Shown: one piece after another, positions 1 to 39,958 of the stretch
Layout of the letters: each line of letters opens with the position of its first letter
Numbering within the stretch: the stretch's first letter is position 1
DNA from: an archaeon SCG-AAA382B04
GTDB lineage: Archaea; Halobacteriota; Methanonatronarchaeia; Methanonatronarchaeales; Methanonatronarchaeaceae
Reading direction: 5' to 3'
Length of the DNA: 64,000 nt
NCBI GenBank assembly: GCA_003034855.1
Contig: PZKD01000062.1
Location: 1 to 64,000 of the forward strand
Made by a program: the position numbers and the translations under genes
Notes under the pieces: generated by a model
Database searches by the model: none
What the model saw: only the letters and a program-made list of their open reading frames with translations
Told to the model about the DNA's origin: nothing

Positions 1-874
1 TATCTCCTTGCCTAGCTTCTACATAATCTCCTTTCCTATACTTAGATTGGGTAGTTGTACCACCATATCTTCTCCTAGCTCCTCCTTTGGATGGTTGCTC
101 TAGATGAAGTTTTCTTCTTGAGTACTTGGGCCTTGTAACTATGTCAAACCTAAACGAGGTTAAAGAAATATCCTTGAGAACCAGAGAACCGAGTGCTATC
201 GCATCATGGACATGAGCCCTAGGTGTTCTCTCATCTTTCTTGCTTGTCTTTTCCAAGCCCAGTTTCTTTCTCTCCTCAGAGGTCTGCCAACCCTTAAACA
301 ACTCTACTGACGCAATCTCCTCTAGCCTGGAGATTAACCAGTTCTTTCCGACTTCAACCTGACTAAAGTATTTACCCCATTCTTTAGTGTAGTGGTCAAA
401 GGATACGTCTTCTATAGCCATTTTTGATATTGGATATACTTCAGATAGTTCTTTTATCACTCTCAACTCTAGTTGCTTTCTGGCTTTTATTGAAGGAGCT
501 AGCCAGTGCCCATTTCGGTTGTCAAACCTCTCTGGTCTTCTCCTGGTTTTCCTGTAACGCCTGTTTCTTCTTCTCTCTCCGCGCTTATCCATTCTATCAC
601 TCACTCCTTGGGGTAGTTCCAAATTAAAACCACATAATACAGCTTCTTTAGAAACTACAGCCAATCCGGAAAACTTACTCCCCGGATCTAGACCCACTGT
701 AACTTCCTGCTTTTCTCTACCAGATGGCTCCTCCACTAACTGGATAACAAAACCATTAATCTCTGTCCTCACCGGCTCTGCTTTCCCCTCTTCCAACCAC
801 CTTCTCGCCCTCGCAGGCTTTGTAGGCATCAGTGGTTCTCCATCAGGAGCTAAGACAGGAACCCTCTCACACAT
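1..874 (-). CDS. IsrB-like RNA-guided nuclease (HNH-less IscB relative), partial
   Basis: I translated this frame by hand from an ATG at 874. It stays open for 291 codons to the window edge, so the C-terminus is missing. Residues 12-34 form a PLMP domain (GEPLMPTKPARAR). RuvC-I is VGLDPGSKFSGLAV with D63. An Arg-rich bridge helix (RRRNRRYRKTRRRPERF) spans about 101-117. RuvC-II is MAIEDVSF with E155, and RuvC-III is HVHDAIALGS with D224. Only about 69 residues separate E155 from D224, with no HNH domain between them. In IscB the HNH lies in this gap, so the architecture is that of IsrB, a transposon-encoded omega-RNA-guided nickase family of about 350 residues. It probably belongs to an IS200/IS605-like element whose other parts lie left of the window. 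Alternative: an internally deleted IscB. Confidence 0.8.
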   Translation of the reverse strand, partial: MCERVPVLAPDGEPLMPTKPARARRWLEEGKAEPVRTEINGFVIQLVEEPSGREKQEVTVGLDPGSKFSGLAVVSKEAVLCGFNLELPQGVSDRMDKRGERRRNRRYRKTRRRPERFDNRNGHWLAPSIKARKQLELRVIKELSEVYPISKMAIEDVSFDHYTKEWGKYFSQVEVGKNWLISRLEEIASVELFKGWQTSEERKKLGLEKTSKKDERTPRAHVHDAIALGSLVLKDISLTSFRFDIVTRPKYSRRKLHLEQPSKGGARRRYGGTTTQSKYRKGDYVEARQGD

Positions 875-1317: not shown

Positions 1318-2292
1318 ATGATGAGTAAGAAGAGATGGGTTTTGATTTTGGTTATTGTTTTGTTAGTTGTTGCTTTAGGAGGAATTGGTAGTGTTTATTT
1401 TGGTGTGGTAGAACAGCCAAGAGCTAGAGATGTTTTTGATGCTCCCATAGTTGGTGACTTTGTTAAGGAACCTGAAGTTGATGTTGTTAGTGCTAGTTGG
1501 GGTGAGATAACTGAGGAAGAGTCTGAGTTGATTGTGGGTGTGCGGGTGGATAATCCTAATCCAGTTGGTTTGGTGTTTGGGGATTTGTTGGTGGAGTATG
1601 ATGTGAGTATGAATGATGTTTTGATGGATAGTGGGGTTGAGAGGGATATTGAGTTGGGGAGTGGTGTTCAGAGGATTAATTTCTCGGTTTATCTCAATAA
1701 TTCTAGGATGGATAAGTGGTGGGTGAGTCATTTGGAGAATGATGAGTTGACGGTTATTAGTTTTAGTCCTAGGGTTGTTTTGGATTTTGGTTTTAGGAGT
1801 TTTAGTTTTGATGTCCCTGTTTTTACGAGGGAGTTTAGTACTGATTTGTTGGAGAGGTTTAATCGAGAGGTATATAAGGAGGTTCGTGTTTTGGATACTA
1901 CTGTGTTGGTTGTTAATGAAACTCGTGCAAGTTGGGGTGAGGTAAGTGGTGATGAGAGTGTTATTGATATGGAGTGGGTTGTGGATAATCCTAATAGTTT
2001 TGATGTGCCTTTGAAGGAGCTGCGGTTTGATTTGTTCATGAATGGAGTTAAGGTGGGGGAAGGTTCTAGTGAAAATATTAGTTTGGAGAGTGGTAGGAAT
2101 GTGGTGGATGGTTCTTTAGTGATTGATAATTCGAAGATGGGGGAGTGGTGGGTGAGTCACCTGAGGAATGATAGTGTTTCTAGTGTTAGGGTAGAGGTTA
2201 GTGGTGTTGTTGGGTTGTTTGGTGAGGAGTTTGAGGTGGGGGTTGGTAGTTATAGCGATAGTTTTGAGACTGATCTAGTCGGGGAGTTTTAG
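1318..2292 (+). CDS. LEA14-like desiccation-related membrane protein, two LEA_2 repeats
   Basis: The 324-residue product begins with a basic tip and one hydrophobic segment (about 6-28), followed by two homologous copies of a domain. Each carries a VDNPN motif (about 77-81 and 221-225) and the late motif KWWVSHL or EWWVSHL. VDNPN plus the beta-rich pattern is typical of the LEA_2/WHy family, small extracytoplasmic domains linked to desiccation and hypersensitive responses. It is therefore a membrane-anchored protein with two external LEA_2 domains; its ligand is unknown. The coding strand is strikingly rich in G and T, opposite to the A/C-rich gene at 2820. The end overlaps the convergent small gene at 2275 by 18 bases. 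Confidence 0.8.
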   Translation: MMSKKRWVLILVIVLLVVALGGIGSVYFGVVEQPRARDVFDAPIVGDFVKEPEVDVVSASWGEITEEESELIVGVRVDNPNPVGLVFGDLLVEYDVSMNDVLMDSGVERDIELGSGVQRINFSVYLNNSRMDKWWVSHLENDELTVISFSPRVVLDFGFRSFSFDVPVFTREFSTDLLERFNREVYKEVRVLDTTVLVVNETRASWGEVSGDESVIDMEWVVDNPNSFDVPLKELRFDLFMNGVKVGEGSSENISLESGRNVVDGSLVIDNSKMGEWWVSHLRNDSVSSVRVEVSGVVGLFGEEFEVGVGSYSDSFETDLVGEF

Positions 2293-2619
2293 TGTTTGGT
2301 TTTTTTCTATTACTCCTTTGTTTTTTATTGTTGAGATGAATGCTTGTGTTAGGTCGTGGTCGAGTTTGTGTTTTCTTTTGAGTTGTTTTTTTAGTTTTTG
2401 TTTTTTTATTCCTTTTTTGAGTTTTGGTCGGTATTTTTTGAAGAGTTTTTTGTATAGTGTGGTTGTTTTCCATTTTTTGGGGATTTCGTAGTTTTCTATT
2501 TGTTGTTGGTATTTTGTGGCTGCGCCGTCTTTTCTGAAGTCTAGTTGGTATTGTGTTGTTTGTTTTATTTGTAGGGCTATTTGTTTGTTACATATTGGGC
2601 ATATTATTCGAGATATCAT
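2275..2619 (-). CDS. Small basic protein with one N-terminal CxxC motif
   Basis: This 114-residue frame starts MISRIICPICNKQ and is very rich in Lys and Gln. One CPxC knuckle at residues 8-11 suggests half of a zinc-binding site, possibly completed by dimerisation; no second Cys pair is visible. Codons end mostly in A or C, as in many recognised genes here, which supports coding. It lies between the LEA14 gene and the pleolipovirus-like module, divergent from the spike gene. I do not recognise a family. It could be a virus-module regulator or a chance open frame. Confidence 0.45.
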   Translation of the reverse strand: MISRIICPICNKQIALQIKQTTQYQLDFRKDGAATKYQQQIENYEIPKKWKTTTLYKKLFKKYRPKLKKGIKKQKLKKQLKRKHKLDHDLTQAFISTIKNKGVIEKNQTLKLPD

Positions 2620-2775: not shown

Positions 2776-2819
2776 TGTGCTAAAGTTTTAAGTGTTTGTA
2801 GAAACTTGTTTTAGCATGT

Positions 2820-4412
2820 GTGATATATGTGTATAAGAGAAGTTTGTTATATAAAATAGTCACAACCACCATAATAACAATACTACTACTAACAACACTC
2901 ACCACATTCACACCAACAATCACCGCACAAGCCCAACAACAAAACCAAACCTGGAAACAACAAATAATACAAAAAGGATTCCTCGAAACCGGGCCCCATG
3001 GAATAGCACTAGACACATGGAGCTACCTCTATGGACAAACAAAAAAATTCACAGACCAGTTCATCCTACACAAAAACCTAAAAGGAACCAAAAAAGAAAA
3101 CACCGCCGCCATATACGGACACGCCCTAACAATAAAAAAAGCAGAACAAACCACACACAAAATACAAAAAAACCACATACACGACGCAAGAAACCTAGCA
3201 TGGGCTAAAATCAAAAAACACACCCTCCAAGCCCTCCAAAACAACAGAACAAAACAATACACCAAAGTACACACCACCAGAATCATAAAAAACTACTACT
3301 CAACAATCCAATACAACCTCAACCAACAACTAAACACCCAAATAAAAACACTAAAACACCTCACACAAAAAAACCAAAACACAACAACACTCTACCAAAA
3401 CCCATTCCAAATACAAGCAACAGTCAAATACCGTAGCTGGGGCAACACCCATACCCTAACCAAGACAAAAAACCTAATCTACTACAAAACAAACACAACC
3501 CTCATAAACGGCACCACCTACCAAGTCACTGACATAAAACCAATACAAATCCCAAAAAAATCCTACAGCCACGGCCACATCACAATCGACGCAGCCACCT
3601 ACGGAGACGAAAAACCCGTTCAAGGAGACGCTCAGAACCAAAAAGTCGGAATATATGTCAAAGGCGCAATAAACGACAAAGCACTAATAATCGACACAAA
3701 CAGCTGGCGCCAAATCCATCTCCAACTCAAACAAGAAAAAAACCAAATGATTGAGAACGCAAAAAACTACATAGATGGAGTCTACAACCAATACCAAACA
3801 GGAGATATAAAAACAAAAGACCTAATCGACGCCAGCACCCTAGTATCCATCCTAAACACAAAAATAAACAAAACCGGTTATTTAGGTTATTCTAACGCAA
3901 AACTAGCTCTCTTAGGAATAAACACCTCACTAGACGCTAAAATAAAGATCAAATTAACCAAGACAAACCAATCACTAACAGGAATGCTCTACACCGACCA
4001 CCACCCCAAAAACAACTCATTCCAGGTAGGAAAAAAATACTATCCAACCAACTGGAGTGAACCATGTTACTTCCTATCCTCATCTTCATTCCACACACTC
4101 AAACAACCATTCGAGATCCAACGAATCACAAATCAAAACGGAGGAACAGTAAAAGAAATTGGGTTAGAAAACTATAATCGCCAAACACTAGATCCAAGTA
4201 ACCTAGAAAAAGAACTAAAACAACTAAACACCCTATACAACCACACAACCTCAATAGAAAAAAACAACAACACCACATTCGAAATAAAAAACCTATTCGA
4301 CGAACTAAACCAAGAATGGATGGAAATGGGATTAAACCAGTGGTACGAAGAAACAATATTCCTATTACTCCTAATAGCATTCCTATTAGTGATATTAGTG
4401 GTGAAGTGGTGA
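2820..4412 (+). CDS. Pleolipovirus VP4-like spike / envelope protein
   Basis: The 530-residue product has a hydrophobic signal-like segment (about 10-35), a long extracellular part and a C-terminal membrane anchor (about 509-529) ending in a short basic tail. This matches pleolipovirus VP4 spike proteins (about 500-560 residues). Family-like features include a helical stretch with AWAKIKKHTLQAL followed by NYYSTIQYNLNQQL, and later GYLGYSNAKLALLG and LTGMLYTD...FQVGKKYYPT. These recall the haloarchaeal envelope proteins, where a similar YY-containing helix and a G-L-aliphatic...F-x-VG-x-x-Y segment occur. VP4 is the membrane-fusion spike. The start is GTG at 2820, with an alternative GTG at 2829. 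The coding strand is A/C-rich. Similarity is judged by eye. Confidence 0.65.
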   Translation: MIYVYKRSLLYKIVTTTIITILLLTTLTTFTPTITAQAQQQNQTWKQQIIQKGFLETGPHGIALDTWSYLYGQTKKFTDQFILHKNLKGTKKENTAAIYGHALTIKKAEQTTHKIQKNHIHDARNLAWAKIKKHTLQALQNNRTKQYTKVHTTRIIKNYYSTIQYNLNQQLNTQIKTLKHLTQKNQNTTTLYQNPFQIQATVKYRSWGNTHTLTKTKNLIYYKTNTTLINGTTYQVTDIKPIQIPKKSYSHGHITIDAATYGDEKPVQGDAQNQKVGIYVKGAINDKALIIDTNSWRQIHLQLKQEKNQMIENAKNYIDGVYNQYQTGDIKTKDLIDASTLVSILNTKINKTGYLGYSNAKLALLGINTSLDAKIKIKLTKTNQSLTGMLYTDHHPKNNSFQVGKKYYPTNWSEPCYFLSSSSFHTLKQPFEIQRITNQNGGTVKEIGLENYNRQTLDPSNLEKELKQLNTLYNHTTSIEKNNNTTFEIKNLFDELNQEWMEMGLNQWYEETIFLLLLIAFLLVILVVKW

Positions 4413-4419
4413 TCTATGT

Positions 4420-4905
4420 ATGGTGAACAAAAAACTACTTTCACTCCTCTTACTAACAACCATCCTATTAGCTCCCATCACAAAAGCAAAAAACACCCAC
4501 ACCCAAATAGACAAAAACACCGTTTTAATAGGCTACACACACCAAGAATCAAGATTCAAACTAAAAATTAGGAGCGAAATAAAACAAGAAATAGCTATCT
4601 ACGACGTAATCAAGTTATTCAATGGCAAGCAAAGAGTTAAAAAAATCATAGAAATCGAAAAAGGAATTAACAACGTCACATTCAACGCTAGCTTGATGGA
4701 AGGAAAAAGCGCTATCCGAATAGTCACGAAAAAGGATTCAATTCCCCTTACAAGTAGAGACAAAGCCTTCTACCAAGAACCAGCTAACTGGATTGATGTA
4801 GAAACCGCTGCTATAACAGGAACCGCTACCGGTTTCTTATTACCTTTGTCGTATGCATTGTATGAGAAGAAGAGAGAAACCAATGAACCAGAAGAGATAA
4901 TATGA
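4420..4905 (+). CDS. Small membrane protein in the position of pleolipovirus ORF6
   Basis: The 161-residue protein has an N-terminal signal or anchor (about 5-22), a beta-rich middle and a second hydrophobic segment (about 128-150, AAITGTATGFLLPLSYALY) followed by a charged tail. It starts seven bases after the spike gene and overlaps the next gene by four bases (ATGA), so the cluster is probably one transcript. In pleolipoviruses a similarly sized, functionally unassigned membrane ORF sits between the spike gene and the ORF7/VP8 pair. I recognise it by position, size and topology, not by sequence motifs. Confidence 0.6.
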   Translation: MVNKKLLSLLLLTTILLAPITKAKNTHTQIDKNTVLIGYTHQESRFKLKIRSEIKQEIAIYDVIKLFNGKQRVKKIIEIEKGINNVTFNASLMEGKSAIRIVTKKDSIPLTSRDKAFYQEPANWIDVETAAITGTATGFLLPLSYALYEKKRETNEPEEII

Positions 4906-5552
4906 AGAACAGACTAAGACAACTCTTTAACCAGCTTGGGATAAAGGTAATAAACCAATTACCTCTTTTTTTCTTATTTTCATTCCTAATAGCAACATAT
5001 GTATTACTAAAATATCACTTATCCAAAACTCTCAGTGTTTTCTTATTAACATACACAATCACCGGCAGTGTGGTGATCTATCCATCTAAGAAATTAGTAG
5101 ATTGGATTTACACGCGAAACTACACCTACCTAATAGAACTAAGAGCCACTGATGAGGGAATAAGAGTGTTTAAGTTCCCAAATGAGGCTTGGAAAGAGGT
5201 GAAGGTTAAAAAGGGTGAATTGTTCAAAGCTCAGAACATTGAAAAAGATGTGTTTTTTTGCCAAACATTTAACAAAAACAGTTTTGTCACCACTGGCACT
5301 TGGCGTGGCTCCATTAGTGGTGTTGAGTTATTAAAACAACAGGAAAAGATAGAGGAAGTACGAGGTTCCTTAGAAAAGATGGCTCGAGATGGATTAGCAG
5401 TTAGAACACGATTATTGTCGATTGTTCGTGGCGCTGTTAACAAAATAGCTCGGGAATTAGCGCAAGAAACAGAAAAAGATGTCTTATACAAGGGTGAAGA
5501 AATAAAAAAGGCTGTAGAAGAAGAAATTGAGGAGGCGAAGGTCAATGAGTGA
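4902..5552 (+). CDS. Membrane protein in the position of pleolipovirus ORF7
   Basis: The 216-residue product has two adjacent N-terminal membrane segments (about 18-36 and 42-60), then a soluble domain of about 75 residues and a C-terminal charged helical region likely to form a coiled coil (about 140-216). The gene is translationally coupled to its neighbours by ATGA overlap upstream and an eight-base overlap downstream. Two-TM proteins with a cytoplasmic helical tail occupy this slot in pleolipovirus genomes. Function is unknown, possibly virion assembly together with the following ATPase. Confidence 0.6.
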   Translation: MKNRLRQLFNQLGIKVINQLPLFFLFSFLIATYVLLKYHLSKTLSVFLLTYTITGSVVIYPSKKLVDWIYTRNYTYLIELRATDEGIRVFKFPNEAWKEVKVKKGELFKAQNIEKDVFFCQTFNKNSFVTTGTWRGSISGVELLKQQEKIEEVRGSLEKMARDGLAVRTRLLSIVRGAVNKIARELAQETEKDVLYKGEEIKKAVEEEIEEAKVNE

Positions 5553-6414
5553 TAGCGACATATTTGCTGCTATGGACCTCAAAAAAGAGGTGGAAAAAGA
5601 CAAAGACAACTTATTAAGTCCACATATAGCTCACAGCTACAATTCGAGTACCTTGGAGTTTTTGGATTATTACAAAAACGAGTGGAAAAACATCAGTGGA
5701 GCTGATTTGTCTAACCAATTTGGGGATTCAGCCTTGTTTAGGAAGGTTGTTCGTGGACAATTAACCAAAGTTCTTTCAGAAGCAGTTAAAAAATCAAGAA
5801 CCAGTCAGATTAAGTACATAACTGGTTATAATGAGAATGCTAAGGATGTGTCTCCAACTAACTTAGTTAAGAAGTTGGCTAAGCGTGTTTGTAGAGATGG
5901 ATACTGTGCTTATTTATTTGGTAAAGTTGGTTCTGGCAAAACCGATTTCGCTTTATTTCTTTCAGAGATTTGGGAATTAATCGAAGATGGAGAGATTGGT
6001 TCAAACATCGAGAGCTTCAAGCAAAAGGACAAAAAAATTGAGTGTTTCAGCGACCTAAGCAATTGGTTAAAGAGTTCTAGTGAGGAAAAGTTGTTTGTTT
6101 TTGATGAGGCAAGTTCTTATGCCGGTGGTTATGGAAAACAGGGCTATCATGCACAAAACCTAATAAAACTACTAAAAAAGTTTAGGAAATACAACGCTTC
6201 ATTATTAATTATTGGTCATACAGGAAAGGATGTTCATCCAGAGATTAGGCGACTCTGTCATGATATTGTGGAAAAGATTAGTAAGAAAAAGGCCAGGTTT
6301 TGGAAGAAGCTGGTTGATGGAGAGGGAAGAGGAGTTGAGTTAGAAATCACAGAAATACCAAAAACCAATTATTCATATGATACACAGGAATTAACCACAT
6401 GGAGCTGGGAATGA
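5545..6414 (+). CDS. P-loop ATPase, pleolipovirus VP8-like
   Basis: I choose ATG at 5545, which has GAGGAGG just upstream, giving 289 residues. A Walker A motif (GKVGSGKTD) follows the VCRDGYCAYLF strand at about residue 130. A Walker B (LFVFDEASS) lies near 188, and a sensor-like strand (ASLLIIGHTGKD) near 224. This is the compact HerA/packaging-like fold used by the pleolipovirus VP8 family and by archaeal plasmid ATPases. Together with the three upstream genes it completes the spike-ORF6-ORF7-VP8 order. A related Walker B fragment survives at 56.4 kb, so similar elements have visited this genome more than once. Confidence 0.7.
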   Translation: MSDSDIFAAMDLKKEVEKDKDNLLSPHIAHSYNSSTLEFLDYYKNEWKNISGADLSNQFGDSALFRKVVRGQLTKVLSEAVKKSRTSQIKYITGYNENAKDVSPTNLVKKLAKRVCRDGYCAYLFGKVGSGKTDFALFLSEIWELIEDGEIGSNIESFKQKDKKIECFSDLSNWLKSSSEEKLFVFDEASSYAGGYGKQGYHAQNLIKLLKKFRKYNASLLIIGHTGKDVHPEIRRLCHDIVEKISKKKARFWKKLVDGEGRGVELEITEIPKTNYSYDTQELTTWSWE

Positions 6415-6464: not shown

Positions 6465-7673
6465 TTGGTTTGGGGAATTATTGGAACATTAGTTGGATTC
6501 GCATTAGTTGTGGCGTTGGTAAGGAGAAATGTAGATTTCAGTGTCTCAATCTTCGCTGGAACAATCTTCATAGCGATAACCAATTCATTCACTCCTGAGA
6601 TGTTTGTTTCTTCGATTGCTGAGACTGCCCTAAGTGTTGACACTCACAATCTCTTGGTCTTGGTGATTTTTATTAATATTATTGGTTTGATAATGGAGAG
6701 AACTGGTCAAATCAATGATGTGGTTGAGAGTTTTAAGACTTTGTTTAGTAGTCGAGGAACTGCGGGTGCTATTCCAACTGTGATTGGTTTGTTACCGATG
6801 CCTGGTGGGGCTTTGATGTCTGCTCCTATAATGGATCAACCCGCCGATGAGTTGGGAGCTGATGCTGAGGAGAAGACTTTGATTAATTTTTGGTTCAGAC
6901 ACTTCATTTACTTCATCTATCCTTTTTCACCTGACTTAGCACTGGCTGCATCATCAACAGAGGTAACCGTGACACAACTAGCTATAGCAAACACCCCAAT
7001 CTTCATATTAACAACTATACTAGGATATTTTTTCTTTATAAGAAAAATGGAAAAAGGAGAAAGAAAACACAGCGAAAACAGGTTACTAGAAGTTGTTAAA
7101 ATAATCTATTGGCTTTCACCAATTCTAATAGCTGTATTAATAAAAGCAACCACAGGAATCAAATTGATGTTCATAGTTCCCATAGCTCTATTACTATTAG
7201 TTTTGCAAAACCTTGGACAGTTAACGCCAAACAAATTCTTTGGTTATCTACAGGAGGGTTTTCCTGTTAAGTTGGCTGTAGCTGTTTTTGGAATAATGTT
7301 CTTCAGACAAACAATCCTAATGACCAACTCATTGGATGCTTTGGTTTCCTTAGCTAGAGGAGTGGGTGTTCCATTAGAGCTTATTGTGTTTTTTGTTCCC
7401 TTCTTAATTGGCCTGGTCCTAGGAATTGGTTTGGGAGCAATAGCTCTCTCATTTCCACTCATCACACCATTAATGGATATGGGTGATCCCTTACAGGTTA
7501 GCGCTCTCTTCATCGCATGCTACCTAGGATACTTGGTGTCTCCAGTGCACTTGTGTTTGGTTGTTACAAAAGATTATTTTGACTCAAACCTGAAACAGGA
7601 TCTAATTGGCTTATTAAAGCCAGTTTCATTCCTAATTCTTTACCTCATCCTACTAATACTAGTGGCCTATTAA
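6465..7673 (+). CDS. DUF401-type integral membrane permease
   Basis: The 402-residue protein is almost entirely hydrophobic, with about ten membrane segments. It contains glycine-rich loops such as LLPMPGGALMSAP near 115 and LVLGIGLGAIALSFPLITP near 325, typical of the DUF401 family within the ion-transporter group that includes gluconate and citrate permeases. The substrate cannot be inferred. The start is TTG at 6465; there is no ATG nearby. It lies 50 bases after the virus-like ATPase gene and converges on aglB, and looks like a resident chromosomal gene. Confidence 0.75.
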   Translation: MVWGIIGTLVGFALVVALVRRNVDFSVSIFAGTIFIAITNSFTPEMFVSSIAETALSVDTHNLLVLVIFINIIGLIMERTGQINDVVESFKTLFSSRGTAGAIPTVIGLLPMPGGALMSAPIMDQPADELGADAEEKTLINFWFRHFIYFIYPFSPDLALAASSTEVTVTQLAIANTPIFILTTILGYFFFIRKMEKGERKHSENRLLEVVKIIYWLSPILIAVLIKATTGIKLMFIVPIALLLLVLQNLGQLTPNKFFGYLQEGFPVKLAVAVFGIMFFRQTILMTNSLDALVSLARGVGVPLELIVFFVPFLIGLVLGIGLGAIALSFPLITPLMDMGDPLQVSALFIACYLGYLVSPVHLCLVVTKDYFDSNLKQDLIGLLKPVSFLILYLILLILVAY

Positions 7674-10462: not shown

Positions 10463-10894
10463 GCTTTCGAATTTTAGGCTTGATGGACTAACTCCTTTCT
10501 CTTCGAATAGTTCGTGGTCTATGTAGATTGGGGCTCTTTCTCTAGAGGCAATTGCTAGGGCATCGCTTGGTCTTGCGTCGAGGCTGATTTGTTTTTCTCC
10601 ATTGTTGTATGTGTTGGCGTAGATTTTTGCGAAGTAAATTCCTTCTTGAGCGTTGTCGATTGTGATTTTGTCTATTGCGCCTCCTACTTCGTTCATTATT
10701 TCTATGAATAGGTCATGGGTTTGTGGTCTTGATGTGGTTTGTTGATTGAGGCCGTTTTTTATGTTTCTTCCCTGCATTGGGTTGCATAGGATTGGTAATA
10801 CTTTTTCGTTAAATTTGTTTTTACCTTGAAGTAATACTAAGGCTCCTTCGTCGGTTCTTCCTACTTCATATATCTCGGCTTTTATTTCGGTCAT
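10451..10894 (-). CDS. Bifunctional nuclease (BFN, DUF151) domain protein
   Basis: The 147-residue protein fits the DUF151 family. It opens with a beta-rich region containing ALVLLQG...VLPILCNPMQG, then HDLFIEIMNEVGGAIDKITID, and the signature ISLDARPSDALAIASRERAPIYI near residues 103-125. Family members have been reported to have dual DNase and RNase activity; the physiological role in archaea is open. It probably shares an intergenic promoter area with the HTH gene just upstream. Confidence 0.85.
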   Translation of the reverse strand: MTEIKAEIYEVGRTDEGALVLLQGKNKFNEKVLPILCNPMQGRNIKNGLNQQTTSRPQTHDLFIEIMNEVGGAIDKITIDNAQEGIYFAKIYANTYNNGEKQISLDARPSDALAIASRERAPIYIDHELFEEKGVSPSSLKFESSSN

Positions 10895-10938
10895 TTTTCT
10901 CAGCTCAAAGTATTGGTTATTTTTTTGTGTGGAAAAAA

Positions 10939-11205
10939 TTATTCCTCGGTTTTTATTAATATAAATTTTCCTTGGGGTGGTGGGGTCATCTTTAGTGTTA
11001 TTTGTTTTTCGAGGCTATAGTATTTTTTTCTTCCATCTTTGTATGTGGTTATTATGTCTTCTTGTCGTAGTTTTTGGAGGTGGTGTTTTAGGTTTTTTCC
11101 GTCGATGTTTAGTTGGTTCATTAGTTCTGAGAAGTAGTGGTCTTTGTTTGTTAGTTGTTTTAGTATTTTTATGCGGTTTTTTTGGCTTATTGCGTCCATT
11201 AACAT
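10939..11205 (-). CDS. ArsR-like winged-helix transcription regulator
   Basis: The 88-residue protein starts DAISQKNRIKILKQLTN, the usual first helix of an ArsR-type domain. A recognition region follows (ELMNQLNIDGKNLKHHLQKL) and then a wing (KDGRKKYYSLEKQ). No metal-binding Cys cluster is present, so a metal sensor is unlikely. It is divergent from the amphi-Trp gene, 67 bases away, and could regulate it, itself or the BFN gene. Its codons mostly end in A or C. Confidence 0.7.
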   Translation of the reverse strand: MLMDAISQKNRIKILKQLTNKDHYFSELMNQLNIDGKNLKHHLQKLRQEDIITTYKDGRKKYYSLEKQITLKMTPPPQGKFILIKTEE

Positions 11206-11272
11206 AATAAGTATATTTTTACAAAGAACTTTTATTAACTTTTTTTGTTTTATTATTTCTATGTGATTTATT

Positions 11273-18798: not shown

Positions 18799-19254
18799 TT
18801 ATTGATAGGTTTCTGTTAGCTGACTTACGGTTCCACCTGAAGGTGTATCAACTATTCTAACTTCTATTTCATCACCACTAGTTGCAGTTACATCGCCTCC
18901 CGTATCTATCGGAACTCTCTCACCCGTTTTAAAGTCATCAGTGATGGAAAACAAAGTTACTTCCGTACTATCATCAGTACCAAGATTAGTTATAACTACT
19001 TTAGTATCACTTGCATTTAAGGTATCACCGCTTTGATGAAGTATCGTAACAGTTAAATTGTCATCAGGGCTTGTGGTTGACATACTGTCTATTGTTATTG
19101 ATGCGGTTGGTGTTGCTTGTGGTGTTTGTATTACTCCGAATACGAATCCTGCTACGATTGCTGCCATTATCACGGTTATAGCGACCATCAATATGACCCC
19201 AATCACTGGAGACACGGCTTCTTCATCTTTTAGAGTCTTTTTAGGGCTTTTCAT
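18799..19254 (-). CDS. Type IV pilin (archaeal Pilin_N)
   Basis: The 151-residue precursor has a class III signal: a charged leader MKSPKKTLKDEEA followed by VSPVIGVILMVAITVIMAAIVAGFVFG, the hydrophobic assembly helix. PibD-type peptidase would cut just before the helix. The rest is a Thr/Asp-rich beta domain of about 110 residues ending GGTVSQLTETYQ. It is the intact member of a tandem pair; about 110 bases covering the helix are identical to the upstream copy. Asn-X-Ser/Thr sites (for example NLT) make it a possible AglB substrate. Confidence 0.88.
   Translation of the reverse strand: MKSPKKTLKDEEAVSPVIGVILMVAITVIMAAIVAGFVFGVIQTPQATPTASITIDSMSTTSPDDNLTVTILHQSGDTLNASDTKVVITNLGTDDSTEVTLFSITDDFKTGERVPIDTGGDVTATSGDEIEVRIVDTPSGGTVSQLTETYQ
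19091..19200 (-). repeat. 110-base identity with 19587-19696 (pilin helix region)
   Basis: The sequence encoding the hydrophobic pilin helix and the start of the mature domain is identical, as far as I can align by eye, between the two pilin genes. The flanking regions have diverged freely. That contrast suggests recent gene conversion or duplication limited to the assembly domain. Confidence 0.8.
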
Positions 19255-19291
19255 AATTTATCCCTCTTTTTTAAATCTGTTAATTAACAAC

Positions 19292-19753
19292 TTATTGTGC
19301 TGTTGCTGTTGGTTGACTTATTGTTCCACCAGATGGAGTATCAACTATTCTTGCTTCGAAATCATTACCTGTGGTAAAACCATGTCCAAATTCTGAGGAA
19401 TTAATAGTAACTCTCTCACCTGTGGTCCATGTTGAACCTATATCTGAATTAGGTCCTAAATCTAGTGTAGCGGTATTAGATGTTGCTCCTAAATCCGTAA
19501 TTACTAGATCTATATCACTTACATTTAAATCATCGCCGCTTTGATGTAGCAACGTCATTTCCCCTGTGCCGTTATTTAATTCTGAAATTGTTATTGATGC
19601 GGTTGGTGTTGCTTGTGGTGTTTGTATTACTCCGAATACGAATCCTGCTACGATTGCTGCCATTATCACGGTTATAGCGACCATCAATATGACCCCTATA
19701 ACGGGTGATACTCCTTACTTGTCCTCTAAAAACTTTTTTGGGTTATATTTCAT
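19292..19753 (-). pseudogene. Second type IV pilin with an in-frame TAA at the signal-cleavage site
   Basis: Reading from ATG at 19753 gives MKYNPKKFLEDK, then TAA (19715-19717), then GVSPVIGVILMVAITV in the same frame through to a normal C-terminus ending TISQPTATAQ. The stop replaces the residue where the paralogue has Glu or Ala before the helix. A downstream ATG exists inside the helix but would skip the processing signal. The rest of the frame is undamaged, so the mutation is recent, read through, or a base-call error. Confidence 0.75.
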
Positions 19754-19774
19754 ATTTTCTTATTCTCCTTTTGT

Positions 19775-19960
19775 TTATTTTGTTTTTGCTTCTTCTATCC
19801 GTTTTTTTAGGCCTTCGCCTTCTTTGTTGGTGTATGGGCATTCGATGTAGTGGTCTACTGCTTGTTGAAGCGCTCCCTTGGTGGTCTCTTCCCCTGCTTC
19901 TTCTTTGAGTTCGTTGAGATCACTTTCTGTTAGTATCGTTTGAGCATGAACTATTTTCAC
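19775..19960 (-). CDS. Small acidic RHH-like protein (possibly DUF5371)
   Basis: I choose GTG at 19960 (VKIVHAQTILTESDLNELKEE), preceded by GGTGAT, giving 61 residues. The order is a short strand, a helix, TTKGALQQAVDHYIECPYTNK and a charged tail. The strand-helix-helix pattern and the TK-A-x-x-AV-x-HY-x-EC motif recall DUF5371 proteins of methanogens, though I assign this only tentatively. It precedes the pilin pair on the same strand and could regulate it. Confidence 0.6.
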   Translation of the reverse strand: MKIVHAQTILTESDLNELKEEAGEETTKGALQQAVDHYIECPYTNKEGEGLKKRIEEAKTK

Positions 19961-20061
19961 CTTTAAATCACCAAACCTAAACAATAATAATCATTATGAT
20001 GTAATAAAAGTTTGGTAGAAAAAACAAAACAAAAAACCACAAACAAAAAAAACAAACAAAG

Positions 20062-21183
20062 TTATTTAAATTTAACAAATTCTTCTCTAATCTCTTTGGC
20101 TTTTGGATGCTTTATGTAATCTATGCAAGAACCCTTTGCCTCATCAATTTCGAGGTGCTCTATCAGTTCTTTGTAGCTTCCTCCACTTAATCCATTTGCT
20201 ACTAAGGCATATCCTTGGCTAGTTTTCTTTGTTTCCCTAGCCCCTAATAAATCATCTAGGACCCTAACATCGTAGTCTTTTAATTTGTTGGTTAGTCTTT
20301 TTTTGATTTGTGGTTTTTTGGTTAGTCTGCCTGATAGGAGTGTTTTGTTTGTTTTTGTAGTTGATTTGATTGATCTAACTGCCTTTTCAACTCCCTCGAG
20401 CATCGATTTTAGTGCATTTCTTTCTTTTTTGTTGTCTAGGTTGTTTAGTAGTTGTTTTGGTGTTTTGTGCCTGGTTATTGTGGATAAGCCGCCCTGGAAT
20501 ATGTGTTGTTTTTGCCAGTTTTTGCCGAGTTGTGTGAGTTCAGCATCCATACCTCCTAGGGTTAGGAATCCGGGGGCTTGGATTGTTGTTCCTCCGATGC
20601 CGTCTATTATTTTTCCTTTTTCTACTGCTATTACTGAGTTGTATCCAAAACCCATTTCGATTAGAATAAAGGAAGTGTTAAAATTTGGTTTGTTCTTGGT
20701 TTGTTGGTGGGTTGCTAGTGCTGTTACTGCTAGTTTGTCGGCTGTTCCCATGTCGAGTTTGTTGTATTTTCTATGGATTGGTACTGTTGGTAGGTTGATT
20801 ATTCCTGGTATGAAGATGGTTTTGTAGTCTCTTTTTTTGATTTCTTTGATTGCTTGTGTCATTGCGTAGTAGAGTAAGGCTCCAAAAACGTTTTTTTCAA
20901 CTGCTTCTTCGATGTATTTTTTTTGTGTTAGTAAGATGTAGTTGTAGTACCATTCTTCGAGTTTTTCCTGTGGTATTCTTTTTAGGTTAGTTGGTTCGAT
21001 TCCGTATCCACTTGGCGCTGCTAGGACATCAAATGGCTCAGCTTTCTCGAGTTCGTCAATTAGTTTTTTTGGGTTTTTTGCCACTTCTTTGGTTGGCACA
21101 CAGGATTCGTACACTATTTTTTGGTTTTTTATTGCGCATATGTCCATTGATTTGGTGCCTGGGTCAATTCCAACAGCCTTCAT
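20062..21183 (-). CDS. DUF1464 family ASKHA-fold protein
   Basis: The 373-residue protein opens with MKAVGIDPGTKSMDICAI, a phosphate-1 loop of the acetate/sugar kinase-Hsp70-actin fold. A second glycine-rich block (ILIEMGFGYNSVIAVEKGKIIDGIGG) lies near 170. This is the archaeal DUF1464 family, related by fold to kinases; no reaction is established. It is separated from glutamine synthetase by 12 bases on the same strand, so the two may be cotranscribed. Confidence 0.75.
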   Translation of the reverse strand: MKAVGIDPGTKSMDICAIKNQKIVYESCVPTKEVAKNPKKLIDELEKAEPFDVLAAPSGYGIEPTNLKRIPQEKLEEWYYNYILLTQKKYIEEAVEKNVFGALLYYAMTQAIKEIKKRDYKTIFIPGIINLPTVPIHRKYNKLDMGTADKLAVTALATHQQTKNKPNFNTSFILIEMGFGYNSVIAVEKGKIIDGIGGTTIQAPGFLTLGGMDAELTQLGKNWQKQHIFQGGLSTITRHKTPKQLLNNLDNKKERNALKSMLEGVEKAVRSIKSTTKTNKTLLSGRLTKKPQIKKRLTNKLKDYDVRVLDDLLGARETKKTSQGYALVANGLSGGSYKELIEHLEIDEAKGSCIDYIKHPKAKEIREEFVKFK

Positions 21184-22530: not shown

Positions 22531-22652
22531 ATTTTTTCACCAATATGATTATTTTTCTAGTTATTTTTTGAACATTACTCATATAAAACTTGTGTTTATT
22601 AAACAAATACACAAAAACTTAAGTAAACATAACCAAAATTTGTTCCTAAGAA
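22531..22652. promoter_or_regulatory. Divergent control region between glnA and the Lrp gene
   Basis: This AT-rich spacer must hold both promoters. Candidate TATA-like stretches include CATATAAAACT near 22579 (rightward) and TTAAACAAATA near 22597. No clear palindromic Lrp box is visible by eye. The short divergent arrangement suggests the Lrp protein acts here on itself and on glnA. Confidence 0.4.
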
Positions 22653-23120
22653 ATGAAGCTCGACAAAACAGACAAAAAAATCCTAAAACAATTACAAAAA
22701 GACGCCAGAAAAAGCTACAGCGACATAGCAGAAGCCGTTGACGTAGCAGAAGGAACCGTCTACAACCGAATAGAAAAACTAAAAGAAGAAAAAATACTAA
22801 AAGGCTTCGTAGCCGACATAGACTACTCAAAACTAGGATACGACATCATAGCAATAATAGGCGTAACATCAAAAGGAGGAAAACTACCAGGACTAGAACA
22901 AAAAATCGCAAAAAACGGAAACGTAACAAGCGTATACGACGTAACAGGAGACTACGACGCAATGGTAGTAGCCAAATTCAAAGAAAGAGATCACCTAAAC
23001 CAATTCGTAAAAGAACTATTATCAAGAGACGATGTGGTTAGAACCAACACAATGGTCGTCTTAAACACAGTAAAAGAAACCCACTCAATCAACCTAAACC
23101 AACAAAAAAATAAAAAATAG
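22653..23120 (+). CDS. Lrp/AsnC family transcription regulator
   Basis: The 155-residue protein begins with the Lrp-type HTH (LDKTDKKILKQLQKDARKSYSDIAEAVDVAEGTVYNRIEKLKEE). A RAM ligand-binding domain follows from about residue 66, containing TGDYDAMVVAKFK and a closing TMVVLNTVKE. It likely senses an amino acid, with glutamine the obvious candidate given the divergent glnA. Codons end overwhelmingly in A or C. Confidence 0.9.
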   Translation: MKLDKTDKKILKQLQKDARKSYSDIAEAVDVAEGTVYNRIEKLKEEKILKGFVADIDYSKLGYDIIAIIGVTSKGGKLPGLEQKIAKNGNVTSVYDVTGDYDAMVVAKFKERDHLNQFVKELLSRDDVVRTNTMVVLNTVKETHSINLNQQKNKK

Positions 23121-23555: not shown

Positions 23556-23619
23556 GGTTGATTCAAAAACTCTTATTCTTTATAACACAAATACCTTATT
23601 AATTAGGTTATCTTAAATT

Positions 23620-23694
23620 GGATCCGTAGCCTAGTCTGGACAAGGCGACGGCCTTCGGAGCCGTAGATCAGGGGTTCAAATCCTCTCGGGTCCG
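23620..23694 (+). tRNA. tRNA-Arg (anticodon TCG)
   Basis: The acceptor stem GGATCCG pairs with CGGGTCC (one G-T pair) and is followed by discriminator G. The D arm is GCC...GGC, the anticodon arm is ACGGC-CTTCGGA-GCCGT with TCG at 34-36 (reads CGA), and the T arm is AGGGG-TTCAAAT-CCTCT. No intron is seen and CCA is not encoded. An integrase gene begins 75 bases downstream, and copies of this 3' end recur at 58.75 and 61.98 kb. Confidence 0.97.
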
Positions 23695-23718
23695 TATTCG
23701 TTGGAGTTCAACATCACT
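23682..23718 (+). repeat. attL-like core: tRNA-Arg 3' end plus flank
   Basis: The end of the T arm and acceptor stem plus about 24 downstream bases recur at 61976-62012 with two one-base insertions and one substitution in the common part. The tail motif TTCAACATCAC also recurs inverted at 53492 and 61949. A direct repeat of a tRNA 3' end flanking an integrase gene is the signature of archaeal tyrosine-recombinase integration. Confidence 0.75.
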
Positions 23719-23768
23719 TATTTAAGTAGGTAGAAACAAAACTAAACAAACAAAAGAGCTGTCCAAAA

Positions 23769-24962
23769 ATGCCCATGCTGGATTATGATAAAAAAGTAAA
23801 AAGACACCTAGAACAAATAAAGAACATAGAAACACACAAAAACAATAAAGAATTATTCAAAGACTTCAATAGGTTCCTACATGCCAAAAACCACAGCAAT
23901 GCACACATAGATAAATTATTGAGTGAACTAAAAATAATGATGAAACAATTCAGCTTTGATTTTGCAGAAACAACTAGAGAAGACATGGAAGAAATAGTTG
24001 GATGGATTAACCAAAGAAACGTAAGCGATGCAACTAAACGACAATACAAAATCACATTAAAGAAATTCTATAAGTGGCTTAACGACGGAGAATACCCTAA
24101 AAAAGTTAAGTGGTTTGAAACCACTAGTCAAAGAAAAAAAGAAAAACTCCCAGAACAGCTTCTTGAAGAGGAAGACATATCAAAGATGCTTGAAGCAGCA
24201 AACAATCCACGTGACAAGGCCTTCACTGCTCTTTTATGGGAAACAGGAGCCAGGATAGGAGAACTACATGGCATGACTGTTGGGTCCATAGAAAACACCG
24301 AGAATGGCATGAAAGCAACCATAGATGGGAAAACCGGACCAAGAAGACTAACATTAATTGAGAGTGTTCCTTACATCAATACTTGGTTAGATTCACACTC
24401 AAATAATGACAATAAACAAGCTCCATTATGGGTTAACATAGGTAACACTAATCCAGGAGAAAAAAGCGGTTACCGAACCCTATACAACATGCTAAAAGAT
24501 ACAGCAGAAAGAGCTGGGGTAGATAAGCCAGTTAATCCTCATCAATTCCGGCATAGTAGAGCAACTTATTTAGCTAATGAATTTACCGAGGCCCAGATGT
24601 GTGAGTGGTTCGGTTGGAAACAAGGAAGCGACATGCCAGCCAAATACGTTCACTTATCAGGAAGAGACATAGATCAATCTTATAAACAATTACATGGAGT
24701 TGTTGAGGAAGAGGAAAAAGAAAGCGAATTAACTCCAATTGAATGCCCTAGATGTAATAACACTAACCCGCATGATGCTAAACTATGCAGTTACTGCGGA
24801 CAACCCTTCGATCATGAAACAGCAATAGAAATAGAAGAAGGAGAGGAAAAGGCTCGAGAAAAGGCTTCTAACGAAACTATTCAAGAAACACTCAAAGAAC
24901 TACAAAAAACGATTCAAAATCAACAAGAAGAGATCCAGGAACTCAAGCAAAATCAATCTTGA
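23769..24962 (+). CDS. Tyrosine recombinase / integrase with C-terminal zinc ribbon
   Basis: The 397-residue protein has an N-terminal SAM-like core-binding domain (about 10-115). The catalytic domain follows, with Arg in LLWETGARIGELHGM, the HQFRHSRATYL box (H-x-x-R), and the tyrosine in MPAKYVHLSG. After about residue 310 comes a zinc ribbon (ECPRCNNTNP...CSYCGQPF) and a Gln/Glu-rich coiled coil. Archaeal integrases with a C-terminal zinc ribbon are common in plasmid and virus elements. Its place next to tRNA-Arg makes it the likely agent of integration. Confidence 0.92.
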   Translation: MPMLDYDKKVKRHLEQIKNIETHKNNKELFKDFNRFLHAKNHSNAHIDKLLSELKIMMKQFSFDFAETTREDMEEIVGWINQRNVSDATKRQYKITLKKFYKWLNDGEYPKKVKWFETTSQRKKEKLPEQLLEEEDISKMLEAANNPRDKAFTALLWETGARIGELHGMTVGSIENTENGMKATIDGKTGPRRLTLIESVPYINTWLDSHSNNDNKQAPLWVNIGNTNPGEKSGYRTLYNMLKDTAERAGVDKPVNPHQFRHSRATYLANEFTEAQMCEWFGWKQGSDMPAKYVHLSGRDIDQSYKQLHGVVEEEEKESELTPIECPRCNNTNPHDAKLCSYCGQPFDHETAIEIEEGEEKAREKASNETIQETLKELQKTIQNQQEEIQELKQNQS

Positions 24963-25075
24963 TTTTTCTTTTTTTCTATATCTTTTTTATTTAAAAGGTA
25001 TTACAATTCAAAAAAGTAATACAAAAAACGCTTTATTCTAATATATCAACAAAATACGGGGTTTTTGTGGATTTA

Positions 25076-25085
25076 TAAGCGCTTA
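25076..25085. promoter_or_regulatory. Palindrome upstream of AbrB-like gene
   Basis: TAAGCGCTTA is a perfect 10-base palindrome 56 bases before the AbrB-like start. A TATA-like TTTATATG follows at about 25109. This would suit an operator for autoregulation by the dimeric protein encoded immediately downstream, though that is inferred from position alone. Confidence 0.35.
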
Positions 25086-25141
25086 GAGATGGGCATTTCC
25101 CAAAAAAATTTATATGCTCGTATAATTTATTATTTAGCAAG

Positions 25142-25318
25142 ATGAAAACGAACTTCAAACTGGGAAGCAGAAAGCTACAAAAGATAGGTTACAGCTTACT
25201 AATCTCAATCCCACCAAGCTGGATAAAAAACAACGACCTTGAAAAAGGAGACATCATTTCAATGAAACTCAACAAAGACGGAACTCTAAAGCTGGAGCCA
25301 GGGGATGATAGCAGATGA
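25142..25318 (+). CDS. AbrB/SpoVT-type small DNA-binding protein
   Basis: This 58-residue gene is read directly from the sequence. It has the swapped-hairpin pattern: SRKLQKIGYSLLISIPPSWI, then NNDLEKGDIISMKLNKDGTLKLEP. The S-x-x-IP-x-x-W segment followed by L-x-x-GD-x-(I/V) is characteristic of the AbrB/MazE fold in archaea. It overlaps the next gene by ATGA and begins the replication operon of the integrated element; it is probably its copy-control or antitoxin-like regulator. Confidence 0.75.
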   Translation: MKTNFKLGSRKLQKIGYSLLISIPPSWIKNNDLEKGDIISMKLNKDGTLKLEPGDDSR

Positions 25319-25467
25319 GTGAGGCCAAATCAACAAAAAAGGGTTACCCGACAAAAAAACAGCTTGAATTAGTTAAAGAGCATGGTAGCGGCATCTTTGA
25401 ACGATTACTCGCCAAGAAAATGCTGAAGAATAGAGAATACAAGGAGGCAAAAAAAGGAGTGAAATAA
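25315..25467 (+). CDS. Small hypothetical protein
   Basis: This 50-residue frame starts within the preceding stop (ATGA) and ends three bases before the next gene, so the coupling argues that it is translated. It is basic and helical: KKQLELVKEHGSGIFERLLAKKML, then charged residues. No family is recognised. A role in DNA or replication control is suggested only by its position. Confidence 0.6.
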   Translation: MSEAKSTKKGYPTKKQLELVKEHGSGIFERLLAKKMLKNREYKEAKKGVK

Positions 25468-25470
25468 AAA

Positions 25471-26076
25471 ATGCCAAGAAATGGAGAAGGGCTTGAAGCC
25501 CCCTATAATAAAGATAATTTTGAAGAAATAAAAAAGCAACGGAGCCTACTGAACGACAAAGCGATTTTGGACCCCGAAGCAACTGACAGCGAGGGAACAA
25601 TAGAATACGGAGTAATTTACCACACACGACGAGAGAACACTACAGAACTAGATTTAGAGGACTTAAATCAACTAAAGACAGAAATAGAACAAACATTCGA
25701 GAAACTAAGAAAACTAAAAAAAGGAAAAGACATAGAACGAGAAATAAACGAATACATTGGTTTATATCCAAGAAACGGAGAGAAACGGACACCAAAACTG
25801 GGAAAAAACCCATACATCGTTTTATATGAACAAAATCATAAGATGACAATATCTAAGCAAGAACTAAAGCAACTAAAGCAAGAGGTCGAAAAAGCCATAG
25901 AACAAATGAAAGAAGAGATACAAAAAATTCAGTGCGACAGATGCAACAAACAAATCAGCAAACCACAAAAAATAGAAATCGGAGACAAAGAATACGAGCT
26001 ATGTAAAGATTGTTACGCAGAAGTAAAAGCAGAGCTAAAAATAGAGACTAAGGGGCTAAGGGGTGGTAGCGAGTGA
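25471..26076 (+). CDS. Element protein with coiled coil and C-terminal zinc finger
   Basis: The 201-residue protein has two similar strand-helix blocks (IEYGVIYHTRRE...TELDLEDLNQLKTEIEQ and PYIVLYEQNHKMTISKQELKQLKQEVEK), which look like an internal duplication. Each is followed by helix; after them comes CDRCNKQ...CKDCYAE, a four-Cys zinc finger, at about 152-182. It overlaps the primase gene by four bases. The function is unknown; it may be a replication accessory protein. Confidence 0.65.
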   Translation: MPRNGEGLEAPYNKDNFEEIKKQRSLLNDKAILDPEATDSEGTIEYGVIYHTRRENTTELDLEDLNQLKTEIEQTFEKLRKLKKGKDIEREINEYIGLYPRNGEKRTPKLGKNPYIVLYEQNHKMTISKQELKQLKQEVEKAIEQMKEEIQKIQCDRCNKQISKPQKIEIGDKEYELCKDCYAEVKAELKIETKGLRGGSE

Positions 26077-27962
26077 GAGAAGCCAAGACAGCGCCAGAAA
26101 TAGAACAAGAACGAGAACAAAAAACAGAGGACGACTTAATTGACGAAGCAAACAAACTAATCCAACAACAAGAAAACGAAGAACAAGAAACCAAACAAAA
26201 AGAAGAAATAGAGGACACATGGGAGTGCCTGCGCTGTGGCCGCGAGTTCGAGCTAAAAAGAGGAGTAAAACCAGTTGAATGCGAAAACTGCGAAAGAAAA
26301 GGACCATTTGAAGCAAAAACTGGTCCACTACAGTTTTTCGATGGACAAAGGTTCCAGGTCAAGAAATTGGCTGACGAAATAACAGAAAACTACAGCTTCG
26401 TAATGCACCGAAGAACACAGGAAATCTATGTCTACGACAACGGAATATACGTTCCAAACGCAAAAACCTTCGTCAGAGAATACGTTAGAAAAAGACTAGA
26501 CGACAGAGTAAGAAGGAGCTACGTAAACGAAGCTGTGGAACACATAAAAGAAACAAATTTCGTGGACCAAGAAAGATTCAACAAAAACAAAACCCTCTTA
26601 CATTGTCAAAACGCGATGCTGGACCTAGACAAAATACTAGGCCTAGACAAAAGCGCTTCTGAACTAGAAATAGCTGACATAATAGCTGCAAAAAAAGACT
26701 TCACGCCCGAAATAGTTTCAACAACAAAAATAAACGCAAACCCCCACCATAACCCTAACGACAGGCCAGAAAAAATAGTTAACTTCTTAGAAGACGTTGT
26801 TGGAGAAGACCAAATCAAACTAATACAAGAAATGATTGGATACTGCTTAATCAAAGATTACCCAGGAAACAAGGCCTTCATGTTACTAGGAGAAGGAGAA
26901 AACGGAAAAAGCACGCTCCTAAACCTAATACAGAAGTTCTTGGGAAAAAAGAGCGTGGCACACGTTAGCTTACAGGACCTAGTTAGAAATAGATTCAGAA
27001 AAATTGACTTATATGGCAAACTAGCCAACTTGTTCGCAGACCTAGCACCCAAAAAACTAGCAGGGACGACAGCGTTCAAAATGGCGACTGGACAAGACAG
27101 CATGGCGGGAGAAACGAAGAATGTGCAGAAAAAGCTTCACTTCACGAACCACGCAAAACTAATCTACTCCGCCAATCAACTACCACACATAAAAACAAAA
27201 AACGCAACCTACGCATTCTTTAGGCGATGGATACCGATTGACTTCCCCTACAAATTCACCGACGACCCAAATGACGGAAACCCCCAAAAAGACCCCGACA
27301 AACTAGACAAAATCACAACCCAAGAACAACTAGATAAATTGTTGACTTGGTCAATAAAGGGATTAAAGCGCTTCATGGATAACGGCAAGTTTTCAACAAG
27401 CACCACAACAGAAGACATAGAGGACAGATGGCTAATGCAAACCAGCAGCATATTTGCGTTCTTCAACAGAGCAATAGAAGAACACAAAGACGCAACCATT
27501 CAAACAAAAAAAATATTTAGCGCCTATGGCCAATGGGCACAAGAAAATGACATACAGCCAAAAGACAACAGCGTGGTCGGAAGAAAGGTCCTAAACAGCT
27601 TCCCAACCGTCGAAAAAGAGCGGAGAGCAACAAAACACGGAAGCGGGAGAGAACAAACCTACGTGGGAATACGCTTCAAAAAAAGCTTCAAACAAAAACA
27701 CAAACACCTAAAAGTCTTCAAAGAAAACAACAACGAAAACAATGCAGACAACGGAACCCGAACACTAGAAGGATACTCCCAGGACAAGAGAATAAAGCAA
27801 TTCAAGAAATGGCTAAACAACAAAAACAATGGAACAAACGAGGAAGAGTGCATGAACAAACTAAGAGAGCTGGGAGCCAAAGACCCCGAACAAGACATAG
27901 AGAAACTACTAAACAAGGGAACAATAACACTAAGCGGAGATGGAGTTAAATACACAGAATAA
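26073..27962 (+). CDS. Plasmid/virus primase-helicase, P4/D5 type (SF3)
   Basis: The 629-residue protein has an N-terminal coiled coil, a zinc ribbon (CLRCGREF...CENCERKG, about 50-75), and a D5_N-type segment. The superfamily 3 helicase has Walker A GEGENGKSTLL near 275, a Walker B region (KLANLFADLAP), and HAKLIYSANQLPHIK with sensor Asn near 365. The tail includes a predicted winged helix (about 590-629). It should initiate or drive replication of the element. The start overlaps the upstream gene; GTG at 26073 is used. Codons end mostly in A or C. Confidence 0.88.
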   Translation: MREAKTAPEIEQEREQKTEDDLIDEANKLIQQQENEEQETKQKEEIEDTWECLRCGREFELKRGVKPVECENCERKGPFEAKTGPLQFFDGQRFQVKKLADEITENYSFVMHRRTQEIYVYDNGIYVPNAKTFVREYVRKRLDDRVRRSYVNEAVEHIKETNFVDQERFNKNKTLLHCQNAMLDLDKILGLDKSASELEIADIIAAKKDFTPEIVSTTKINANPHHNPNDRPEKIVNFLEDVVGEDQIKLIQEMIGYCLIKDYPGNKAFMLLGEGENGKSTLLNLIQKFLGKKSVAHVSLQDLVRNRFRKIDLYGKLANLFADLAPKKLAGTTAFKMATGQDSMAGETKNVQKKLHFTNHAKLIYSANQLPHIKTKNATYAFFRRWIPIDFPYKFTDDPNDGNPQKDPDKLDKITTQEQLDKLLTWSIKGLKRFMDNGKFSTSTTTEDIEDRWLMQTSSIFAFFNRAIEEHKDATIQTKKIFSAYGQWAQENDIQPKDNSVVGRKVLNSFPTVEKERRATKHGSGREQTYVGIRFKKSFKQKHKHLKVFKENNNENNADNGTRTLEGYSQDKRIKQFKKWLNNKNNGTNEEECMNKLRELGAKDPEQDIEKLLNKGTITLSGDGVKYTE

Positions 27963-27997
27963 CCACGTGTTTTTACCCAAACCCGGGGCACAAAACC

Positions 27998-29375: not shown

Positions 29376-29589
29376 CGTTATTTTTTGTTCTCTATTTTTA
29401 TTCTTTTGTTTGTAGCTAGTAACTTATTTAACTAAAATAAAAAAGAGAAGACAAACAAAAGACGGAATGGATTAGTCAGTTTTTACTCCATATTTTTTGG
29501 CTATTTTCTTTCCTACTTCTTCTGGATTACCTAGTTCTTCGGACCTATCCAACTTCTGAATTTCAGAACTTTATTTTTTTCTTGGCAAC

Positions 29590-39931: not shown

Positions 39932-39958
39932 CTTAATACTCCTGAAATTAGTTCTTAA

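Follow-up and report, generated by a model that had tools for sequence, protein, structure and literature searches.

A VP3-less pleolipovirus-type VP4-ORF6-ORF7-VP8 gene module, probably a reduced provirus, in the Methanonatronarchaeaceae archaeon SCG-AAA382B04

Proviruses encoding VP4 have already been published for the order Methanonatronarchaeales (Medvedeva et al. 2023, as cited and analysed in Baquero et al. 2024, PMC10919331), so this kind of element is known, and in the tree of Baquero et al. the Methanonatronarchaeales VP4 clade was sister to the haloarchaeal clade (PMC10919331). An earlier note on the DNA described here had taken such modules to be known mainly from haloarchaea, which does not hold, since they also occur in Methanonatronarchaeales, Methanomassiliicoccales and Archaeoglobi (PMC10919331). 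According to El Omari et al. 2019, as cited in PMC10919331, pleolipovirus VP4 is exported and has a C-terminal anchor; it attaches to the host surface and carries out membrane fusion.

The window analysed here is the whole stretch of 64,000 nt taken from the first base of contig PZKD01000062.1 (contig 45) of archaeon SCG-AAA382B04, a salt-loving methanogen, which belongs to class Methanonatronarchaeia, order Methanonatronarchaeales, family Methanonatronarchaeaceae, and whose genome comprises 1.42 Mb in 132 contigs. The only same-family relative compared was 'Candidatus Methanohalarchaeum thermophilum' HMET1 (MSDW01000001, MSDW01000002), which represents a different genus. Four coupled genes on the plus strand were identified in the window (Table 1, copy A), with 7 nt between the first two and overlaps of 4 nt and 26 nt at the next two junctions. 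The spike matched its PHROG family with E 1e-58, the 161-aa protein with 5e-12, the 216-aa protein two families with 2e-35 (phrog_5952) and 3e-16 (phrog_7373), and the ATPase with 1e-65. HRPV-11 and His2, classified pleolipoviruses which served as positive control for the PHROG assignment, have collinear genes that matched the identical families with the order preserved. Pfam gave no family for the spike, the 161-aa or the 216-aa membrane protein, and only a sub-threshold AAA match for the ATPase. At the level of sequence, all four genes are identified as pleolipovirus-type VP4, ORF6, ORF7 and VP8, and the pleolipovirus core order and sizes proposed from the open reading frames were borne out in position, length and collinearity with HRPV-11 and His2.

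Table 1. Location of the module, its copies and surrounding features (window positions unless a contig or locus is named)
Feature	Location	Strand	Basis or remark
VP4-like spike / membrane fusogen, 530 aa	2820..4412	+	phrog_2231, tblastn, PDB profile, fold
HRPV-1 ORF6-like secreted or anchored protein, 161 aa	4420..4905	+	phrog_1938
HRPV-1 ORF7-like membrane protein, 216 aa	4902..5552	+	phrog_5952/7373
VP8-like P-loop ATPase, 295 aa	5527..6414	+	phrog_1979, tblastn
DUF401 membrane protein, right flank, non-viral	6465..7673	+	start of block syntenic in HMET1
Right-flank block in HMET1	C1:374-394 kb		without module
LEA_2 protein, left neighbour, probably non-viral	1318..2292	+	no PHROG match, no viral relatives
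114-aa antisense ORF	2275-2619	-	CPIC motif near start
RRXRR (IscB-like RuvC) protein	2-874	-	cut by contig end
Module copy A	2820-6414	+	window
Module copy B	contig 13 of window genome (L010/L011)
Module copy C	HMET1 contig 2 (L012:14526-19205)
ORF7 of copy C	L012:17470-18123		one in-frame TAG
Module copy D	HMET1 contig 1 (L014/L015)
Probable second integrated element	23619-29400
Tyrosine integrase of this element	23769-24962
Phage-type primase/helicase of this element	26073-27962
Type IV pilin genes and companion, duplicated	18799-19984	-
Related pilin/companion pair, HMET1	L014:12367-13085		between integrase and VP8 of copy D
Skew tract, G+T-rich	1201-2950
Skew tract, A+C-rich	2801-4400
Further skew tracts	10551-11250, 20301-21000, 22601-23100, 27401-28100, 39051-39950

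The spike carried the N-terminal hydrophobic signal and the C-terminal TM segment that had been read from its sequence, together with 13 NxS/T sites, and its pI of 9.6 was unusually basic compared with 5.1-6.8 in relatives. When it was searched by tblastn against 50,697 phage records, pleolipovirus-type spikes were found with a best E of 1e-18; HRPV-10, HRPV-11, HRPV-12, HRPV-1, HHPV-1, His2, HFPV-1 and the Archaeoglobus profundus provirus were among the 20 of 23 matches listed. A profile built from only the four Methanonatronarchaeaceae spikes described below reached the solved HRPV-2 VP5 (6QGI) with E 4e-6. For an AlphaFold model of the spike (pLDDT 58.6), the only strong Foldseek matches in PDB were VP5 of HRPV-6 and HRPV-2 (6QGL/6QGI, E about 1e-14, probability 1.00), and the top viral structural match was HRPV-11 VP4. 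The alignment of this model included haloviral VP4s from IMG/VR, so the fold match is not a fully independent test. A model built earlier on three sequences had a pLDDT of only 47 and did not enter the structure search. IMG/VR scans with the window spike, with the four-copy alignment and with the Archaeoglobi VP4s gave no relative. The structural check suggested for the 530-residue protein thus ended in agreement with the pleolipovirus spikes, both by sequence profile and by fold.

The family matches and tblastn E-values put the resemblance to pleolipoviruses far beyond chance. A chance resemblance, in which a plasmid-type ATPase lies next to unrelated genes for membrane proteins, might be suspected, as the spike is only 20-26% identical to haloviral VP4s, but four independent family matches in known-virus order plus the structural match speak against it, and with the HRPV-11/His2 control and the Foldseek match to VP5 spikes this reading was refuted and its probability is practically negligible.

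The window ATPase possessed both Walker motifs noticed earlier, GKVGSGKTD and FVFDE, and matched pleolipovirus NTPases in tblastn with E 1e-47. It lacked the C-terminal extension of roughly 70-100 residues present in most relatives, while the Archaeoglobi virus ATPases are similar in length. In the VP8 tree it grouped with pleolipovirus VP8s, its exact place there not being resolved, and membership of phrog_1979 agrees with this grouping rather than with unrelated plasmid ATPases, the outcome that the earlier note had regarded as damaging.

Judging by homology, the spike would be an exported, C-terminally anchored and probably glycosylated fusogen, which could bind the host surface and merge membranes. 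Assembly or budding of enveloped particles may be aided by the ATPase and the two membrane proteins.

VP3, which normally lies directly upstream of VP4, was not found upstream of the window VP4, and a VP3 profile derived from the remaining module copies had no match anywhere on the window contig. Neither Rep nor integrase was found among the genes adjoining the module, no replication gene (Rep, RCRE or PolB) was found beside it, and no att-like repeats, tRNA or integrase were found at it, the left side being limited in each case by the contig end 2.8 kb away. The lack of Rep, VP3 and integrase beside the module had been remarked before, and was confirmed by the gene list and the VP3 profile. 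Known members have two major structural proteins, and as VP3 is one of these, the module as found should not form a normal virion alone, and with integrase and replication genes also absent, it would not be an autonomous virus. The missing genes may lie beyond the contig, since its end is so near.

The left side contained a LEA_2 gene, a 528-nt G+T-rich spacer before the spike, and an RRXRR gene, several further full or partial copies of which exist in the window genome and probably explain the assembly break. The contig thus starts inside a multi-copy gene, and the break might fall within an element, a complete and perhaps active provirus with its VP3 analogue, replication gene and integrase to the left of the break or too divergent for recognition. 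Genomes of pleolipoviruses measure 7-18 kb and vary greatly outside the core genes, and VP3 has divergent variants (PMC10599561). Such a provirus is unlikely, because the usual place of VP3 is taken by the spacer and by a LEA_2 gene without viral relatives, and because sister copy C, lying on a 422-kb HMET1 contig between a thermosome gene and an MFS gene, also has no VP3. Between LEA_2 and the spike there was also a very basic antisense ORF of 114 aa, which had no Pfam or PHROG match and may be a real small gene.

The right flank was arranged as DUF401, AglB, TFS-like, DUF151, HTH, HtpX and thioredoxin, and the same block was present in HMET1 without the module, so the right side is host chromosome. 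Elsewhere in the window, a tRNA-Arg was followed through by a tyrosine integrase, a phage-type primase/helicase and a methyltransferase fragment, which is probably a second integrated element; no structural genes were recognised in it, and no second copy of the tRNA end was found within the window. Its integrase was 55% identical to the integrase beside HMET1 provirus D. Genes of archaeal type IV pilins were duplicated in the window together with a companion of 69-70 aa, and a related pair was located inside HMET1 provirus D.

Two spike modules per genome were revealed in the window genome and in HMET1. VP4 of copy A was 41% identical to that of copy C and 30-33% to those of copies B and D. 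In a small and unrooted VP4 tree, the four Methanonatronarchaeaceae copies formed one clade (100/100), apart from haloarchaeal and Archaeoglobi viruses, which was divided into A+C (100/99) and B+D (95/97). The VP3 profile, run over both genomes, matched only at copies B and D, which have the same four genes as A in the same order. Upstream they carry a VP3-like small membrane protein (123/126 aa) and, before the spike, a second anchored protein (223/248 aa), and D has an integrase nearby, unlike A. The VP3-like protein of copy B belonged to phrog_5900, with a weaker match to phrog_3232, the family of HRPV-11 VP2. A tRNA-Ser reported by ARAGORN in the region of copy D was disregarded, as it lay inside the ORF7 gene.

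Copy C, the sister of A, was likewise without VP3, integrase and Rep, so the VP3-less form is common to two genera, at different chromosomal sites. It differed from A by upstream ParB-N and 71-aa ORFs, a small membrane ORF, an unusual start of VP8, and a single TAG in ORF7, which takes the place of an aromatic residue and is flanked by conserved sequence. Two pairs of pyrrolysine synthetase and tRNA exist in HMET1 (PMC9071458), so that this viral-type gene may encode pyrrolysine at the TAG; alternatively, the TAG may be a recent nonsense mutation and mark the start of decay. That copy C is a set of pseudogenes was weakened, since its ATPase frame is open over full length and the single TAG occurs in an organism with two such pairs (PMC9071458), the readthrough being putative.

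Nowhere in the window was strand asymmetry stronger than in the part that includes the spike gene. G+T per 500 bp was 0.82-0.83 left of position 2820 and 0.18-0.3 right of it, with the flip at about this position, and within the tract the LEA_2 gene, which is not viral, and VP4 mirror each other. Tracts of this type were 0.5-2 kb long and reached 83% G+T on one of the strands; further ones were seen in the window and many in L012/L013. In sampled sequence, 2.8% and 5.5% of 500-bp windows deviated by more than 0.18 in the two Methanonatronarchaeaceae genomes, while sampling of six haloviruses and of eight further Halobacteriota genomes showed no equally strong tracts. To our knowledge, neither a description nor a mechanism has been given for such local strand asymmetry; as a guess, the tracts would suit strand-specific A and C deamination.

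G/T made up 9% of the four-fold degenerate sites in VP4 of copy A and 46-53% in VP4 of copies B, C and D, whereas the first and second codon positions of copy A stood at 33% and 35%. In copy C, which is also skewed, the effect was strongest in VP8 instead (four-fold sites 4%, positions 1 and 2 at 32% and 34%), whereas the ATPase gene of copy A and the module genes of the VP3-bearing copies B and D had no skew. Synonymous sites being skewed and positions 1 and 2 resistant, an old resident module with proteins under selection is suggested, and at the sequence level we infer that A and C took on the skew of the host lineage in the chromosome while their proteins stayed constrained. The residence would be dated here by the skew, and the skew might also build up in a virus lineage that replicates in this host.

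The same signature bears on whether the module is an inactive remnant, its viral genes decaying after the rest of the provirus was lost. Missing VP3, integrase, Rep and att sites, the TAG and unusual VP8 start of copy C, and the high pI of the spike would all fit decay. The four overlapping frames are intact, however, protein positions resisted a skew that saturated the synonymous sites, and the ATPase retains all motifs and is not skewed, which makes a remnant rather unlikely. Because A+C-rich DNA has few stop codons, the open frames are weaker evidence than usual.

The favoured reading, held with somewhat better than even confidence, is a reduced, coding-intact morphogenetic module of the Methanonatronarchaeia pleolipovirus-related lineage, that is, a long-resident provirus which may be helper-assisted or kept for host use. 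The codon signature suggests that the module has been long in the host-type mutational environment with its proteins under purifying selection. The reduced provirus could work with a helper such as copy B on contig 13, which could in principle supply VP3; alternatively, it would be kept for host use. The suspicion of a remnant or a reduced lineage fits these findings in that VP3, integrase and Rep are absent here and from the sister module in another genus, and the module would be an old, chromosomally resident, VP3-less reduced provirus, possibly exapted. Full domestication, in which the fusogen module became a host-owned membrane-fusion or vesicle-forming system under selection at chromosomal loci in at least two genera of Methanonatronarchaeaceae, has no more than a modest chance. 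With this system one could examine whether the four genes VP4, ORF6, ORF7 and VP8 are enough for membrane particles to be formed or fused, and whether a viral fusogen can be captured by an archaeal host. Where a tract is skewed, the contrast between its synonymous sites and those that alter the protein could also indicate if selection still acts on captured genes.

Among described groups, the three Archaeoglobi viruses of the proposed Thalassapleoviridae (AvPV1, ApPV1 and GacPV1) have a VP4-like fusogen, and two of their three ATPases are similarly short (302-312 aa), but they contain VP3 and integrase, and their VP4s form a supported clade of their own (100/99), to which copy A does not belong. 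Pleolipoviridae (HRPV-11, His2, HHPV-1 and HRPV-1), whose virions are enveloped, pleomorphic and released without lysis, share with the window the collinear VP4, ORF6, ORF7 and VP8 in common PHROGs and the VP5-type spike fold. They differ in having haloarchaeal hosts, VP3 and a replication protein, strongly acidic spikes and a different VP4 clade; the window module has no VP3, no replication gene as far as the contig reaches on the left, and a VP4 outside the haloarchaeal clade. Its VP4/VP5-type spike and the ordered four-gene block assign it to the wider pleolipovirus-related lineage. The closest systems are the Methanonatronarchaeales VP4 proviruses, which, as presented in PMC10919331, have the same host order, a VP4-like fusogen with many N-glycosylation sites and their own VP4 clade, apart from those of haloarchaeal and Archaeoglobi viruses; the window module agrees in host order and VP4 clade, and differs from what is presented there by the absence of VP3 and Rep and, up to the contig end on the left, of integrase and att sites. 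A VP3-less, mobility-less and skew-marked form was not described in the literature searched, the locus set of Medvedeva et al. 2023 being outside that search. What is unusual compared with known proviruses is therefore the reduction to a stripped-down, apparently long-resident form, a sister VP3-less version of which is carried by two genera beside ordinary VP3-bearing proviruses.
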